Source: Sipunculus nudus | Lineage: Eukaryota; Annelida; Sipuncula; Golfingiida; Sipunculidae | Reading direction: 5' to 3' | Assembly (NCBI GenBank): GCA_026874595.1 | Contig: CM049307.1 | Coordinates: forward strand, 36,996,862-37,060,861 | DNA: 64,000 nt | In this document: piece by piece, positions 1-56,619 of the stretch | Numbering within the stretch: the stretch's first letter is position 1 | Layout: the number at the start of each line of letters is the position of its first letter | Notes under the pieces: model-generated | Told to the model about the DNA's origin: nothing | Seen by the model: only the letters and a program-made list of their open reading frames with translations | Databases searched by the model: none | Position numbers and translations under genes: made by a program

Positions 1-320
1 TCCACTCAGCTAAACTAAATACACAATTTTCTATATGACTAACATACAAACAGTTAATAACAACAAGAAACACAGTTACGCTTATTAAAGTTACGCTTAT
101 TTTTTTTTTATATTTCACTGTTACTCGCTCAGTCTTACTCGGAAAGGGTTCCATGATCACGTGCATGACAGGCTAGAAGATACCGCTGTCCGCTCGGTAG
201 ATGGCGCTTTGTTGTTATTTCACCCGTATTATTGTTCAGGGAAAATCCACCGCTACCACCAAGCAGTGAGTATATCACAGAATTAACGGCTGAAAAAATA
301 CAATACATGAGTAAAAAAAA
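1..320 (-). other. Intron 16 continuation, no recognised content
   Basis: AT-rich sequence on the far side of the minisatellite. I see no open exon or repeat unit here; the next coding exon must be left of the window. Confidence 0.5.
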
Positions 321-1936
321 AGAAATATTTAGTTTTGTTAAACGAGTTATAATGGCACTGGAAACTTTTTAAACATTCAATGGAAAAAAAGGGCATTTAT
401 CATGTACATCTACATTCGTACATGTATCAGCGTCTGTGGCGGAGACCGCTGTGAAGGTGGAGTGTGGAGGTACGTACATGTATCAGCGTCTTTGGCTGAG
501 ACCGCTGTGAAGGTGGAATGTGGAGGTAGGTACATGTATCAGCGTCTTTGGCCGAGACCGCTGTGACGGTGGAGTGTGGAGGTACGTACTTGTGTCAGGG
601 TCTGTTGCGGAGACCGCTGTGACGGTGGAGTGTGGAGGTACGTACATGTATCAGCGTCTGTTGCGGAGACCGCTGTGAAAGTGGAGTGTGGAGGCACGTA
701 CATGTATCAGCGTCTGTTGCTGCTCATGAGACCGCTGTGACGGTGGAGTGGTGAGGTACGTACTTGTATCAGTATCTGTGGCGGAGACCGCAGTGACGGT
801 TGAGTGTGGAGGTACGGACATGTATCAGCGTCTGTTGCTGATAAAAGAAATATTTAGTTTTGTTAAACGAGTTATAATGGCACTGGAAACTTTTTAAATA
901 TTCAATGGAAAAAAGGGCATTTATCATGTACATCTACATTCGTACATGTATCAGCGTCTGTGGCGGAGACCGCTGTGAAGGTGGAGTGTTGAGGTACGTA
1001 CATGTATCAGCGTCTTTGGCTGAGACCGCTGTGAAGGTGGAATGTGGAGGTAGGTACATGTATCAGCGTCTTTGGCCGAGACCGCTGTGACGGTGGAGTG
1101 TGGAGGTACGTACTTGTGTCAGGGTCTGTTGCGGAGACCGCTGTGACGGTGGAGTGTGGAGGTACGTACATGTATCAGCGTCTGTTGCGGAGACCGCTGT
1201 GAAGGTGGAGTGTGGAGGCACGTACATGTATCAGCGTCTGTTGCTGCTCATGAGACCGCTGTGACGGTGGAGTGGTGAGGTACGTACTTGTATCAGTATC
1301 TGTGGCGGAGACCGCAGTGACGGTTGAGTGTGGAGGTACGGACATGTATCAGCGTCTGTTGCTGATAAAAGAAATATTTAGTTTTGTTAAACGAGTTATA
1401 ATGGCACTGGAAACTTTTTAAATACTCAATGGAAAAAAGGGCATTCATCATGTACATCTACATTCGTACATGTATCAGCGTCTGTGGCGAAGACCGCTGT
1501 GACGGTGGAGTGTGGAGGTACGTACATGTATCAGGGTCTGATGCGGAGACCGCTGTGACGGTGGAGTGTAGAGGTACGTACATGCATCAGCGTCTTTGGC
1601 TGAGACCGCTGTGAAGGTGGAATGTGGAGGTAGGTACATGTATCAGCGTCTGATGCGGAGACCGCTGTGAAGGTGGAGTGTGCAGGCACGTACATGTATC
1701 AGCGTCTGTTGCCGCTCATGAGACCGCTGTGACGGTAGAGTGGTGAGGTACGTACTTGTATCAGTATCTGTGGCGGAGACCGCGGTGACGGTGGAGTGTG
1801 GAGGTACGGACATGTATCAGCGTCTGTTGCTGAGAAAGAAATATTTAGTTTTGTTAAACGAGTTATAATGGCACTGGAAACTTTTTGAATATTCAATGGA
1901 AAAAAGGGCATTTATCATGTATATCTACATTCGTAC
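321..1936. repeat. Higher-order repeat of about 525 bp with shared intronic spacer
   Basis: A spacer of about 110 bp (AGAAATATTTAGTTTTG, then GGCACTGGAAAC, then AAAAGGGCATT) recurs with starts near 321, 846, 1370 and 1836. Each of the first three copies is followed by seven or eight minisatellite units. The first two periods are about 525 bp and the third about 467 bp, one 56-bp unit shorter. The block was therefore amplified as a composite after the 56-bp array had formed. Confidence 0.85.
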
Positions 1937-2555
1937 ATGTATCAGCGTCTGTGGCGAAGACCGCTGTGACGGTGGAGTGTGGAGGTACGTACATGTATCA
2001 GGGTCTGATGTGGAGACCGCTGTGACGGTGGAGTCTAGAGGTACGTACACGTATCAGCGTCTTTGGCCGAGACCGCTGTGACGGTGGAGTGTGGAGGTAC
2101 GTACTTATGTCAGGGTCTGTTGCGAAGACCGCTGTGACCATGGAGTGTGGAGGTAGGTACATGTATCAGCGTCTGTTGCGGAGACCGCTGTGAAGGTGGA
2201 GTGTAGAGGCACCTACTTGTATCAGCGTCTGTTGCTGCTCATGAGACCGCTGTGACGGTGGAGTGGTGAGGTACGTACTTGTATCAGTATCTGTGGCGGA
2301 GACCGCAGTGACGGTGGAGTGTGGAGGAACGTACTTGTATCAGCGTCTGTGGCGGAGACCGCTGTGACAGGGGAGTGTGGAGGTACGTACATGTGTCAGC
2401 GTCTTTGGCTGAGACCGCTGTGAAGGTGGAGTGTAGAGGTACTTACATGTATCACGGTCTGTTGCGGAGACCGCTGTGACGGTGGAGTGTGGAGGTACGT
2501 ACATGTATCAGCGTCTGTTGCGGAGACCGCTGTGACGGTGGAGTGTGGAGGTAAG
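427..2555 (-). repeat. 56-bp minisatellite built from an exon 3' end plus its splice donor (about 34 copies)
   Basis: On the plus strand the unit reads GTACGTACATGTATCAGCGT, then TTGCGGAGACCGCTGTG, then ACGGTGGAGTGTGGAG. On the gene strand it is the coding sequence for PHSTVTAVSATDADT followed by the donor GTACGT. The rightmost unit (2500-2555) is the real exon end. Spacing is 56 bp (GTTGCGGAGA at 2461 and 2517), not a multiple of three. Copies vary by point changes and a few 8-10 bp insertions (GCTCATGAG variants). Confidence 0.9.
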
Positions 2556-2758
2556 TTTGACGGTATTTCTATGTTGTAGATGTGCTTGGTAAACTTAGGC
2601 CGGTTGTCATTGACGTCTTCTACTTTAACGCACACTTCCATGAACCCACTGAGAGAGGGCTGTCCTAAATCGGTCGCCACCAACCAAAATCTTATTTCTG
2701 TAAACTGCTCATAATCGACGGGATGCTGAACACGTAGCTCTCCACTGTCCGCATCAAG
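2503..2758 (-). CDS. Exon 16: end of cadherin repeat 5, start of repeat 6; last exon in the window
   Basis: Following CTTTCTTTCAG, the exon encodes LDADSGELRVQHPVDYEQ, FWLVATDLGQP, VCVKVEDVNDNRPKF and then IEIPSNLPPHSTVTAVSAT-DADT. All EC5 calcium motifs are present. The most likely donor is ACAT|GTACGT at 2502-2501, but the exon end and this donor are repeated dozens of times to the left, so the end used in vivo is uncertain. Reading straight through stops at about 2396. The next exon lies left of base 1. Confidence 0.85.
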
Positions 2759-5700
2759 CTGAAAGAAAGTGGTCTTTCAGTTAATCTGTTAACATTAACT
2801 TAAAATAATTTGGGATAGTTATAATATTGAATGATAATGATTTTAATAAGGATATACTTTAAATATGAAAATATTATCTCTTTAATTTTTTTATGTTTGG
2901 TATCCCTACTCCCGGGGAGCACTCCTAGAGAGTTCATCTCACGCAGGGGGCTATTTGCACTGCCTGCCTTAAAACGATGACTCAACGTTTGGTAAATTAT
3001 ACGGCTTCTCTTACATTAGATTATTAAAATTCTCCTAGAATATTCTTATTCTATTTTGATAGTTCAACTCACATTAAAGAGCTATATTGTGAAAAGAACT
3101 GAAAGGACATTGGACGTTAATATTCCGTTGTTTCCACTGTTAACAGCGAAATATTACGATTAACAGATCGACTAGCTGGTACTTATAAGATTTATATTTT
3201 GCAATGTGACCAATTCATACAGGGAAAAGACGACAAACTAGGAAATCACACTGCCTTGACTTGGCCTGCTCTATTTTAAACTCAATAGCCTGTCAGAAGA
3301 CTAAGATCAAAGCTTGTCAGGGCAGTACACGATTATATCGTATTACCCATTTTGCCATGATCAAGGAATACAAAAGAATATCCGAGTAATAAACACTGGG
3401 AAGAGAGTGACGTTTCGTCCTTTAATGTGGTATTGATCTGAGGAACTCCAAGACAAAACTATCTGCTACCTCATTAGTCATCAGACCCGAAGCCGCAGAA
3501 CTGTGTGATTGACAGAATAAGCTGTGAGCTGGTGTAATATCTGCGCTCTCTTGGCGCGCGATAAGCGGATTGCGGTAGCAGAACGCGGCATGCGGAATGC
3601 GGTATAAAATCGAGTTGGGCATTTAGTTAGCGGGCTTTTAAACACAAGGGTATGGAACTGGTGATGTCAAAACCCGCTAGCTCACCCTGCGTCAGATTCG
3701 TACGTCAAATACATGATAACCAGGTCCCGTGATTGCTATACGGATGCGTATCCAATTCTCCACTAAGAGTTCAATTTTATATTGCGTGTCTCATACTGCA
3801 TTATGCATACATACTGCGACAAATGGTCCTAGCCGTCCCACATTCCTCAACTGGAAGAGACTTATTTTGAGTAGAATTATAAAGAATTTCGCCTTCTTGG
3901 CAATACAGTAATTACATAGCGGGACAATAATTAAGCTGTTGACGAAGCTAATTTATTAAAAGGGGTTTTTTCACGTGTTTATAGTATTGTCACTGCAAAA
4001 GCTTAAATCAGTTTGGCAATGGTACATTTTGATATGCTATATTTTGGTATAAGACAATTTCAAAGGTATTCTAGGCATATTTGATTAAAGACAATAAAAA
4101 AACACACTTTTTTCGTGAGACTAAAACGAACCACAATCCATGTAATGTTGGTCTTGTTTGTCCATTTGGTTCCTTATGCATGAAAGACGGAATATAATTT
4201 ATTGATATCTGAGATGTTATTTGAACCTTCTCTTGCAGCTATATTCTTTTTTCTGCCAAGACTCCCTGCAACAGGGGTATACATATAGGTAATCTCTTAC
4301 TGTGAAAAAATAATCTCCCCTGGCTCCCGTGGCGTTGTTACGTATTGAGTAGACCACCCGGGCGTTGTCACCCCAGTCCTGATCTGTTGCCGTAAACGTT
4401 CCCAACACATGCGTGAAATTTGTGTTTTCTGAAAAGACAGTTTTTAATTTATTGTTACATTTTTCATGCAATACAAACAATACTTTCTCATCCAATATTT
4501 CCGGAGCTTTTACTTTCCTTGCTGATACATTACGATAAATTGATGCATTATTAATGCTTCTGATAAATCAAGGTAGTTAACGGAGGCTGAATGATTTGCT
4601 TGATGTAACGGAGATATTGTGCGATAATGATTGGCAAAAGCTATTTTTTCCTTTGTTCTTTTCCAAGTAATAGCTCACAAATATTGCAACCGTAAATAAC
4701 TTCGCACTGTGTAATAACGAAGAAAAACTGTTTGCCTCAGTTTAAATCACAGCTTTCTTTAAAGCAAGCAGATATTTGTTACTTAAGCTACGATTCCTTT
4801 TACGCGGTTGTGGTTGCGCAGAAGCGGATCCAGGGGGGAGTGTGCACGGGGTCCGGATCTCCCCCCCCCCTTTCATCAGAAACGTTTTTTAAGGGCTTCA
4901 GACAAAATTTTGCCGCCTGGACCCCCCCCCCCCCCTTTTCAGACCTGAGGAACTTTTTTTAGGGTTTTCATTTGTCCTCCTTTGTTGGATCCCCCTTTTC
5001 CTAAATCCTGGATCCGCGAGGACAATATTAAGATTGCAAATAATGTTGAATTCAAAGAATTCCAACACCGTAAAGTGTGATGAAAATAAAAATGTTCATG
5101 TATATACGGCAGGTTTTGGTTTTATTGTAATATGTTATTAATTTAGCATCGATTTAGCCACTAAACTGTTGTCACGGAACTCCCCTGTCGCTACACCTCT
5201 GAAATGCGGGTTAGTGAACCTGACGTGTCCCCAAGGATGCCATGAGTGTCCTTAGGGTATCTTTCCTCATGCTTTTACATATATCCTGAGGAATTTGGCA
5301 TTAATTTGGAAAATTCGCGAAAGGTCTATCGTGGCGCCATCTATCAGAAACTGCATCAGTGCTTTTATCATGCGGGTACATTCGATGCATGAAAAACACT
5401 ACCGAACGATTCCGCCCATGGCCAATCTGTCCCGGTCAAACGAACCTGTCCCAATGCAATAACGGATAGTATGCTAGTAGATATAATGACAATTTTGTCA
5501 AATTTTGCCCGAATATATATAAAAGTGTGTCTTGAATCGAGATATATGGTCTGAGATTTCATAATATGGGGCGATCTATTCAACCTATATATTTAGTTTG
5601 CATAGAATTAATAAATGTTATGTAGGGTTTGATTCTTTGGGATGGCTATGGCGAGAAATATCACAAGTTTTATTTTATTTTGGAAACGTCATTTGTGAAG

Positions 5701-29250: not shown

Positions 29251-30724
29251 GTATCCGCCAAAACAGAGTTTTGCGGATACTATGTTTTCAGCTGCACGCC
29301 GCCGCCGCCGCGGGAACATATCTCGGGAACCGTTTGACCGATCAGGAAAATTTTTTTACACAAATGTAGCCCTTGGAGAGCTTTATAACATACACAAAAA
29401 ATGGTGGCGCCACCTGCAACCATGTTTGCACAGTGTCCATCTGTTCGTCTGCCTTGGGTTAAAATCACTCATATCTCTGCAGTGACTAGACTAATTCACC
29501 TGAAATTCGGCATGCGTAAACATCCTGGATAGCTTTTCTGATTTTATGACAGGTGGCGCCACCTACATTCACGTTTACGCTGCAGACATCCAAGCTCATA
29601 TCTCGGGAACCGTTTGACCGATCAGGAAAATTTTTTTGCACAAATGTAGCCCTTGGAGAGCTTTATAACATACACAACGATGGTGGCGCCACCTGCAACC
29701 ATGTTTGCACAGTGTCCATCTGTTTGTCTGCCTTGGGTTAAAATCACTCATATCTCTGCAGTGACTTGACTATTTCACCTGAAATTCGGCATGCGTACAC
29801 ATCCTGGATAGCTTTTCTGATTTTATGACAGGTGGCGCCACCTACATTCACGTTTACGCTGCAGACATCCAAGCTCATATCTCGGGAACCGTTTGACCGA
29901 TCAGGAAAATTTTTTTGCACAAATGTAGCCCTTGGAGAGCTTTATAACATACACAAAAAAATGGTGGCGCCACATGCAACCATGTTTGCACAGTGTCCAT
30001 CTGTTCGTCTGCCTTGGGTTAAAATCACTCATATCTCTGCAGTGACTAGACTAATTCACCTGAAATTCGGCATGCGTAAACATCCTGGATAGCTTTTCTG
30101 ATTTTATGACAGGTGGCGCCACCTACATTCACGTTTACACTGCAGACATCCAAGCTCATATCTCGGGAACCGTTTGACCGATTGTGCATGTATATAAAAT
30201 TTTGCATGTGTATAGATTTCACATAGCTCTTCATCATACGCAAAACTGGTGGCGCCACCTGCAGCCATTTTTGCACAGCTCCTGTCTGTTTGTCTGCCAT
30301 GGGATAAACTCACTCATATCTCGGCAGTGGTTTGACATATCTGCCTAAAATTGTGCAGACATCCAAGCTCATATCTTGGGAACCGTTTGACCGATTGGGC
30401 CAAAGTTTTGCATGTGTATAGTTCTCACATAGCTCTTTATCATACGCAAAACTGGTGGCGTCACCTGCAACCATTTTTGCTCAGCGTCCATCTGTTTGTC
30501 TGCCACGGGCTTAAATCACTCATATACATGTAGTGGTTTGACTTATCTGCCTTAAATTTTGCATATGTATACAACTTGGACGGCTTTCTGGATTTTGTGG
30601 TATGGGGGGCAACCTACATACACAATTTGGCTGCAGACATCCGTGCTAATATGCAACACTCAATTCCCCTTGCCACTCAATCCACGCCTCACTTCACCCG
30701 TTCCATTCTGATTTAGGCGGATAC
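29251..30724. mobile_element. 1.5-kb element of tandem ~280-bp units with GGTGGCGCCACC palindromes
   Basis: The ends are GTATCCGCC (29251-29259) and GGCGGATAC (30716-30724). The left end also folds on itself (GTATCCGCCAAAAC / GTTTTGCGGATAC). Units restart at ATCTCGGGAACCGTTTGACC near 29320, 29598, 29876 and 30156, with a diverged copy at about 30375. Each unit carries one or two GGTGGCGCCACC sites and CATCTGTTCGTCTGCC. ORFs on both strands are by-products of the repeat. A non-autonomous DNA transposon is the likeliest identity. Confidence 0.75.
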
Positions 30725-55857: not shown

Positions 55858-56619
55858 GTTCAAGACTTTTACCTACATGGGTTTTACAACGTTGTTTCGT
55901 AAGGGCCGTAGGTCCTCACCCTACGGAAACCCATCATGAAATGGGCCAGGTATTAAGATTTTTTAATGTTTGATCTGGCGCATGCGTAGTTAGCCAGGAG
56001 GTGTTTCGCCCTGTGTCTGCATGTGCTCGCGACTTCGTTTCTTTTGTTTAGTGTTGACAATAGGGGTCTGTATATTATGAAGAATTTCTCTTCCAGGCAG
56101 AGATAACAGGATTTTTTAGTCGTGGAGTATGGTTTTGCTTTGCTTAGGCCTATAATCTTCCATTGTATTGAGTGTTGCACATGGTTGGCTTTCAGTCTCC
56201 AAATGTATTCGCTGAGAGTTGTACTGTTACGTTTGTTTACATTCCTGAAGCTTGAGACGTGGGCATTGTACCGCGTTTTAAAAGTATTTTCTGTCAGTCC
56301 TATATGTACGTTTCTGGTCTCAGGTTGTCCTTGCGTATCACAGTAGCCTGGTATACTATATTACTGATGAGACAGTTTCCTTGTAGCGGACATTGTTGTC
56401 TATTTCTGCAGTTACAGTTGTTCTGTTCAATTTGCTGTAATTTATGTTTATTCAATACAGACTTGTTGTGCGCTGATATGATCTGGCCCATGTTTTGCAT
56501 GCTGCTGTAACTTAGTTTAACATTAAACAAGATAAGAAATTCATGATGGGTTTCCGAAAAGTGAGGACCTACGGCCCTTCCGAAACAACGTTGTAAAACC
56601 CATGTAGGTTAAAGTCTTG

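Follow-up and report, generated by a model that had tools for sequence, protein, structure and literature searches.

A cadherin exon end and its 5′ splice site repeated through the following intron: a likely neutral minisatellite of the mirage type

The 64,000-nucleotide stretch of DNA analysed here (the window) comes from an animal, judging by gene content, and a cadherin gene on its minus strand carries in one intron a minisatellite that repeats the end of the preceding exon together with its 5′ splice site. Wrap-around alignment delimits a 56-bp tandem array at 417-2553 of the minus strand, and of the 2,213 bp of the intron 2,086 bp (94%) lie between 2502 and 417; the same intron minus the array would measure about 132 bp. 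On the evidence of sequence, frame and domain content, the locus is likely to be a minisatellite of the mirage type, neutral and of recent growth, that derives from the cadherin exon and leaves one productive donor.

The exons flanking the array are recognizable by reading frame, splice signals and cadherin content (Table 1). The upstream exon at 4301..4428 is an open frame with cadherin residues that continues in frame into the next exon; its acceptor, CTTTTCAG, scores 1.1, and the longer open frame at this position gives a Pfam cadherin match of 20.9 bits, below the cut-off of 28.8. The exon with the amplified end has the acceptor TTTCTTTCAG/C and the 3′ end ...GATACAT/GTACGT, and together with one further residue it reaches 41.4 bits for PF00028. 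The following coding exon, 289-139, lies inside the window on the 3′ side of the array and of TATTTTTTCAG; it had been absent from the original prediction, which likewise did not mention the three spacers of about 100 bp or the higher-order blocks described below. Conceptual joining of the two exons at 2502/289 reads ...SATDADT-SVNSVIYSLLGGSGGFSLNNNTGEITTKRHLPSGQRYLLACHARDHGTLS, and PF00028 gives the joined exons 71.3 bits, both together, and the domain crossing the junction 45.7 bits, while the start of that domain read through to the second donor (50 residues) gives 16.1 bits, below the cut-off of 28.8. In a PDB sequence search the best relatives include CELSR1, protocadherins and cadherin-23. 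Judged by frame and domain, the cell would normally join donor 2502, whose position had been given correctly, to acceptor 289. A further exon probably continues the frame outside the window from a start at window coordinate -526, which is preferred for its pyrimidine-rich lead and cadherin-like sequence; four of the eight AG starts tried in one stretch beyond the window leave the frame open, and the PDB search gave the exon at -526 no confirmation past its first residues.

Table 1. Features of the cadherin locus in window coordinates (a slash marks a splice boundary; scores are from generic matrices)
Feature	Coordinates	Strand	Details
Upstream cadherin exon (exon 15 in the earlier numbering)	4301..4428	-	donor ACA/GTAAGA at 4300
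Cadherin exon with amplified end (exon 16 in the earlier numbering)	2503..2758	-	256 nt, phase 0 to phase 1
Unit 1, the genuine exon end	2498..2553	-	51 exonic nt and GTACG of the intron, by wrap-around alignment
Putative productive 5′ splice site CAT/GTACGT	2497..2502	-	2503 joined to 289 gives an in-frame cadherin domain
Remaining minisatellite	417..2497	-	30 full and 3 truncated copies, 3 spacers
Decoy donor of unit 2, CAT/GTAAGT	2441..2446	-	matrix 8.8, U1 -6.9 kcal/mol; best-scoring in the array
TGA in the retained reading frame	2396..2398	-	ahead of donor 3 and every later donor
Second strong decoy donor, CAA/GTAGGT	2211..2216	-	matrix 7.1, U1 -6.4 kcal/mol
Spacer 1, intron-tail copy	1830..1931	-	ends in acceptor-like ATATTTCTTTCTCAG/C, score 4.2
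Spacer 2, intron-tail copy	1362..1464	-	ends in acceptor-like TATTTCTTTTATCAG/C, score 4.3
Spacer 3, intron-tail copy	838..940	-	ends in acceptor-like TATTTCTTTTATCAG/C, score 4.3
Distal 524-bp higher-order block	417..940	-	near-identical duplicate of 941-1464
Original downstream intron part with genuine acceptor TATTTTTTCAG	290..416	-	source of the three spacers
Next coding exon (exon 17 in the earlier numbering)	139..289	-	phase 1 to phase 2, donor CGA/GTAAGA at 138

With the exon as its sole query, a BLAST search of the minus strand between 20000 and -3000 recovered the exon itself and 33 copies, the best at E values of about 1e-19 to 1e-20, which excludes a chance likeness of exon and array. 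The original prediction of an array that multiplies the end of an exon along with the 5′ splice site is upheld, and the homology of exon and array is present on realignment by BLAST and by wrap-around alignment alike. The unit had rightly been put at 56 bp, although its proposed composition of 15 codons plus GTACGT adds up to 51 and not 56, the actual unit being 51 exonic nt followed by GTACG; where about 34 copies had been thought to follow the exon end, 33 do so, 30 of them full and three truncated. Among the 30 full distal copies, four have a length of 62 bp instead of 56, and 25 of the 31 full units have distinct sequences. The array is interrupted by three spacers of about 100 nt that copy the tail of the intron (416 to about 313), and the resulting higher-order blocks measure 467, 524 and 524 bp from spacer start to spacer start. 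Blocks 941-1464 and 417-940 show 4 mismatches and no gaps over 524 bp, while the 467-bp block, aligned with these two, shows 27 and 25 mismatches and 57 gap columns; identical units recur between the blocks. When the 1.43-Gb assembly was searched with 2770-2380 (the exon and the first units), all 14 matches fell at the cadherin locus, in a procedure whose first pass kept one candidate place and skips common words and which leaves uniqueness unproven; no second-haplotype copy appeared in this search of one assembly. Six of six other exon stretches of the gene lack copies in 23 kb, some of these queries ending at open-frame ends or off by a base.

The exon copy is probably ancestral and the source of the array, because it is central among the units and has cadherin coding sense: at 55 of its 56 positions it has the base that prevails among the 30 full distal units, from which it is 4.1 differences away on average, against 6.3 over all pairs, and the stretch of exon that became repeated codes for a standard piece of cadherin, PPHSTVTAVSATDADT, that falls within PF00028. 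Because the distal ends of all four unit runs read GTACGAAT and then pass into AATGTAG of the spacer or tail, the intron is likely to have started with GTACGAATG before the array arose, in which case donor 1 would have changed from GTACGA to GTACGT. Slippage at a TACCTCC microhomology, the origin originally proposed, was rejected: TACCTCC follows the donor only as the start of the next unit, which makes the argument circular, the distal flank reads GTACG-AATGTAG, and the primary breakpoint deduced from this flank has no shared base on either side and no microhomology. The pre-array intron would have been short (about 130 bp), with GTACGA at its start and TTTTTTCAG at its end. A 56-bp segment made of the last 51 nt of the exon and the first 5 nt of the intron was probably duplicated in tandem, followed by duplication of whole blocks comprising several units and about 100 nt of intron tail, and the intron would thereby have reached 2,213 bp from an initial length of about 132 bp. 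The structure suggests that the 56-bp units came first and the larger blocks later, the last block being either recent or homogenised afterwards, and since one block pair is nearly identical the number of blocks has probably changed recently. Slippage and unequal exchange would let the length of the array drift, and the array itself would serve no function.

All 33 distal donor positions carry GT, with the hexamers GTACGT in 20, GTACCT and GTACGA in four each, GTCCGT in three, and GTAAGT and GTAGGT in one each. Most units had been said to keep the octamer GTACGTAC; at 16 of 33 it falls just short of a majority, which the hexamer GTACGT does attain. An invariant GT is unremarkable because 28 of the 56 unit positions are invariant across the 30 full distal units, and selection for kept donors was considered and rejected, half of the unit being as invariant as the donor bases. 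The splice-site matrices used for donors and acceptors are generic ones, not derived from the host species, and on this scale donor 2502 scores 6.3, with U1 pairing at -2.7 kcal/mol. Elsewhere in the partial gene model, five donors range from 5.1 to 12.8 by matrix and from -4.5 to -12.2 kcal/mol in U1 pairing, leaving 2502 with the weakest U1 pairing of the six and third weakest by matrix, a position that counts against a neutral reading. Among 3,165 same-strand GTs in 2800-60000, 3.5% reach donor 2502 by matrix and 33% by pairing energy, so that pairing energy alone separates poorly; donor 2446 is reached by 0.8% and 3%, respectively. In support of the original prediction, 20 of the 33 distal donors are level with donor 1 or better by matrix and 19 by U1 pairing. 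The donors at 2446 and 2216 are clearly stronger than 2502 on both measures, which also counts against neutrality. GTACGTAC is palindromic, and two donors can pair with each other at -11.3 kcal/mol; local folding openness was 0.126 for donor 1 versus a distal median of 0.027, and 0.012 versus 0.009 under the other folding-window setting.

At the end of each spacer the pyrimidine tract of the intron is joined to the CAG of a unit. The resulting acceptor-like sites, at 4.2-4.3, score above the acceptors of the exon at 2758 (4.0) and the exon at 289 (3.0) and take the first three ranks among the 122 AG sites for which a score was computed in 2800-280. Apart from the genuine 2758, the other ten of the top 14 are unit-internal CACAG sites, and because these reach 3.7-4.0 the edge of the spacer acceptors by score is small. 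Both the spacer acceptors and many of the unit-internal CACAG sites outscore the genuine acceptor 289, a further observation that counts against a neutral reading.

When joined to the next exon, all 33 distal unit donors lead to a premature stop in the frame analysis. The second donor, at 2446, adds 56 nt and shifts the frame into a TGA at 277, with 136 nt of exon 289-139 still to come, and from the third donor onwards the TGA at 2398-2396 lies ahead of each of them. Each distal unit donor thus yields a stop, so neither the restoration of frame at every third unit nor the variation in protein length that had been attributed to these donors holds. Just one GT with a score above 0 stays open, the off-register 2442 (+60 nt, matrix 0.5). 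Cryptic exons were enumerated with starts only at the three spacer acceptors, in combination with three upstream donors and at lengths of up to 500 nt, and six of the 72 combinations stay open, all via an 18-nt piece before a weak GTCCGT. The array is hardly expected to vary protein length through its donors, and if it is active at all its effect would more likely be a lowered output.

Repeats are abundant around the locus. In the 273,000 bp that contain and surround the cadherin array, arrays of period 10 or more make up 28,271 bp, and this frequency of minisatellites was counted in favour of the neutral reading. A tandem repeat of about 279 bp (period 278-280), in which CTCATATCTCGGGAACCGTTTGACCGATC or something like GGTGGCGCCACCTGC is present, occurs at 29317-30563 of the window and outside it at about -16279 to -15469 and 70383 to 72835; it may be a satellite family that has dispersed. 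Arrays with a period of 145 bp lie outside the window at about 81759-82290, 112222-112781, 132239-132942 and 138651-139480, some of them having AATAGGTCTGGAGCCCTCATAGGTACCAATCATCCCTG or a close variant in common. A 43-bp repeat about 55.4-54.9 kb to the left of the window start has 12 copies of a unit with GAGGTAAGT, a consensus 5′ splice site; by a rough estimate the presence of GTAAGT in this unit is about at chance level. By eye, an open frame at 55953-56360 (minus strand) resembles the GIY-YIG end of a Penelope-like element, for which Pfam gave nothing above a cut-off, and another at about -81205 to -80867 (plus strand) resembles the C-terminal end of PAPS synthase and perhaps belongs to a neighbouring gene.

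With neutral growth, the extra donors and acceptor-like sites would be tolerated as splicing noise and the products of distal sites destroyed by nonsense-mediated decay. A function of the array as a splice tuner is possible and not favoured, and the splice sink put forward in the original prediction stays a conjecture. In one such reading, which we regard as unlikely, the array is an unproductive-splicing device that competes with 2502, unit number setting the cadherin level via degraded transcripts and splicing being diverted to donor 2446 or into pseudo-exons with an array acceptor at their start. The 8.8 and -6.9 kcal/mol of donor 2446 against 6.3 and -2.7 for 2502 would suit such competition, and the stop of the 2446 product, 136 nt before the exon end, is far enough for decay by the 50-nt rule of nonsense-mediated decay; the three spacer acceptors score above the genuine acceptor, and the near-identical block pair points to a block number that probably changed recently. 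The donors, however, show no conservation signal, predicted accessibility gave the distal ones no advantage over donor 1, and published mirages are reported not to disturb splicing (PMC3087553, PMC3902484). It is unlikely that the array acts as a copy-number-dependent brake on cadherin, in which a changing share of transcripts would go into stop-containing products with 2446 as the main competitor of 2502; the brake would employ cassettes of an intron-tail acceptor, an exon fragment and several donors, repeated by higher-order duplication.

Inflation of the copy number by an assembly error, above all through the duplicate 941-1464 / 417-940, is improbable; two 524-bp blocks with 4 differences are a hard case for assembly, yet even if one block is such an error, most of the array can hardly be accounted for in this way, because 27 and 25 mismatches and 57 gap columns set the 467-bp block apart from the longer two and 25 of the 31 full units are distinct. 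It is very improbable that the array generates isoforms through in-frame arrangements that lengthen the cadherin domain. The open frames of 2442 (+60 nt) and of six of the 72 cryptic-exon combinations would allow this, 18-nt micro-exons after spacer acceptors adding STDADT, but 2442, with a matrix score of 0.5, is a weak donor that the stronger 2446 overlaps, the GTCCGT donor of the 18-nt exon has a matrix score of 2.8 and pairs at -0.9 kcal/mol, and the remaining 66 combinations are closed. The reverse direction, in which a pre-existing intronic or genomic satellite donated sequence to the exon, would fit the frequency of minisatellites nearby but is very improbable: the repeated exon part is PPHSTVTAVSATDADT, a standard stretch of cadherin inside PF00028, the exon copy has the central place among the units, and no copies were found elsewhere in the assembly search, which kept one candidate place and skips common words. 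The neutral mirage-type minisatellite remains the preferred explanation.

Mirages in amphioxus are reportedly the subject of a paper by Canestro from 2002. They are described in Adh3, the globins BflGb6 and BflGb9, PGBD5 and troponin C (PMC3087553, PMC3902484), the last two being further cases (PMC3902484). According to the globin account, BflGb6 has six and three units in two haplotypes and BflGb9 one duplicate, mirages are unstable in length and at Adh3 also somatically, and the Adh3 data together with globin RT-PCR suggest that regular splicing is undisturbed by them (PMC3087553). As in the amphioxus mirages so described, the cadherin locus has a minisatellite-like tandem duplication across an exon-intron boundary, many copies with splice signals (GT in 33 of 33 and GTACGT in 20 of 33), and homogenisation within the cluster, here 4 differences in 524 bp between blocks, a likeness that recent duplication would produce as well. 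Unlike BflGb6 and BflGb9 in the globin account, it has 33 extra copies of the 5′ boundary, and unlike the amphioxus mirages so described its higher-order blocks also copy the intron tail, making acceptor-like sites. In the literature covered, which leaves most subscription papers outside, none of the matches listed combines a 5′ boundary array with higher-order intron-tail copies. The cadherin array looks like a large case of an already described mirage kind; its features of specialist note are the decoy donors that outscore the genuine one and the block duplications that build decoy acceptors.

A minisatellite with multiple splice donors in human IFI6 (6-16) was reportedly described by Turri, Cuin and Porter in 1995; the IFI6 units are 12 bp long and keep the frame. 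Two downstream units are used as donors there (PMC4526556). The likeness to IFI6 is a minisatellite at an exon end that repeats a splice donor. The cadherin unit differs in being 56 bp long, in taking in coding exon and in that every distal unit donor leads to a premature stop; no distal unit donor gives an open in-frame transcript of the IFI6 type, only the off-register 2442 being open. In human duplicated genes, variable minisatellites at boundaries can form novel introns via cryptic splice sites (PMC2812944), and in the Rogers model introns are gained by tandem duplication around proto-splice sites in which the duplication brings the splice signals (PMC3087553). Unlike the boundary repeats of the human genes so described, the cadherin array enlarged an existing intron, and unlike intron gain under the Rogers model that intron grew in length only, with no new position seen between the copies; the flanking exons join in phase as one cadherin domain. 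Taken together, the locus suggests that an intron may grow about 17-fold from its own exon end with the protein unchanged, and if the host is not a lancelet, mirage-type exon-boundary minisatellites are no lancelet peculiarity. With 34 donors in one intron, 20 of the 33 copies reaching the matrix score of the real donor and one productive by frame, it offers a natural test of splicing choice, in which one 5′ splice site stands among dozens of near-identical ones.
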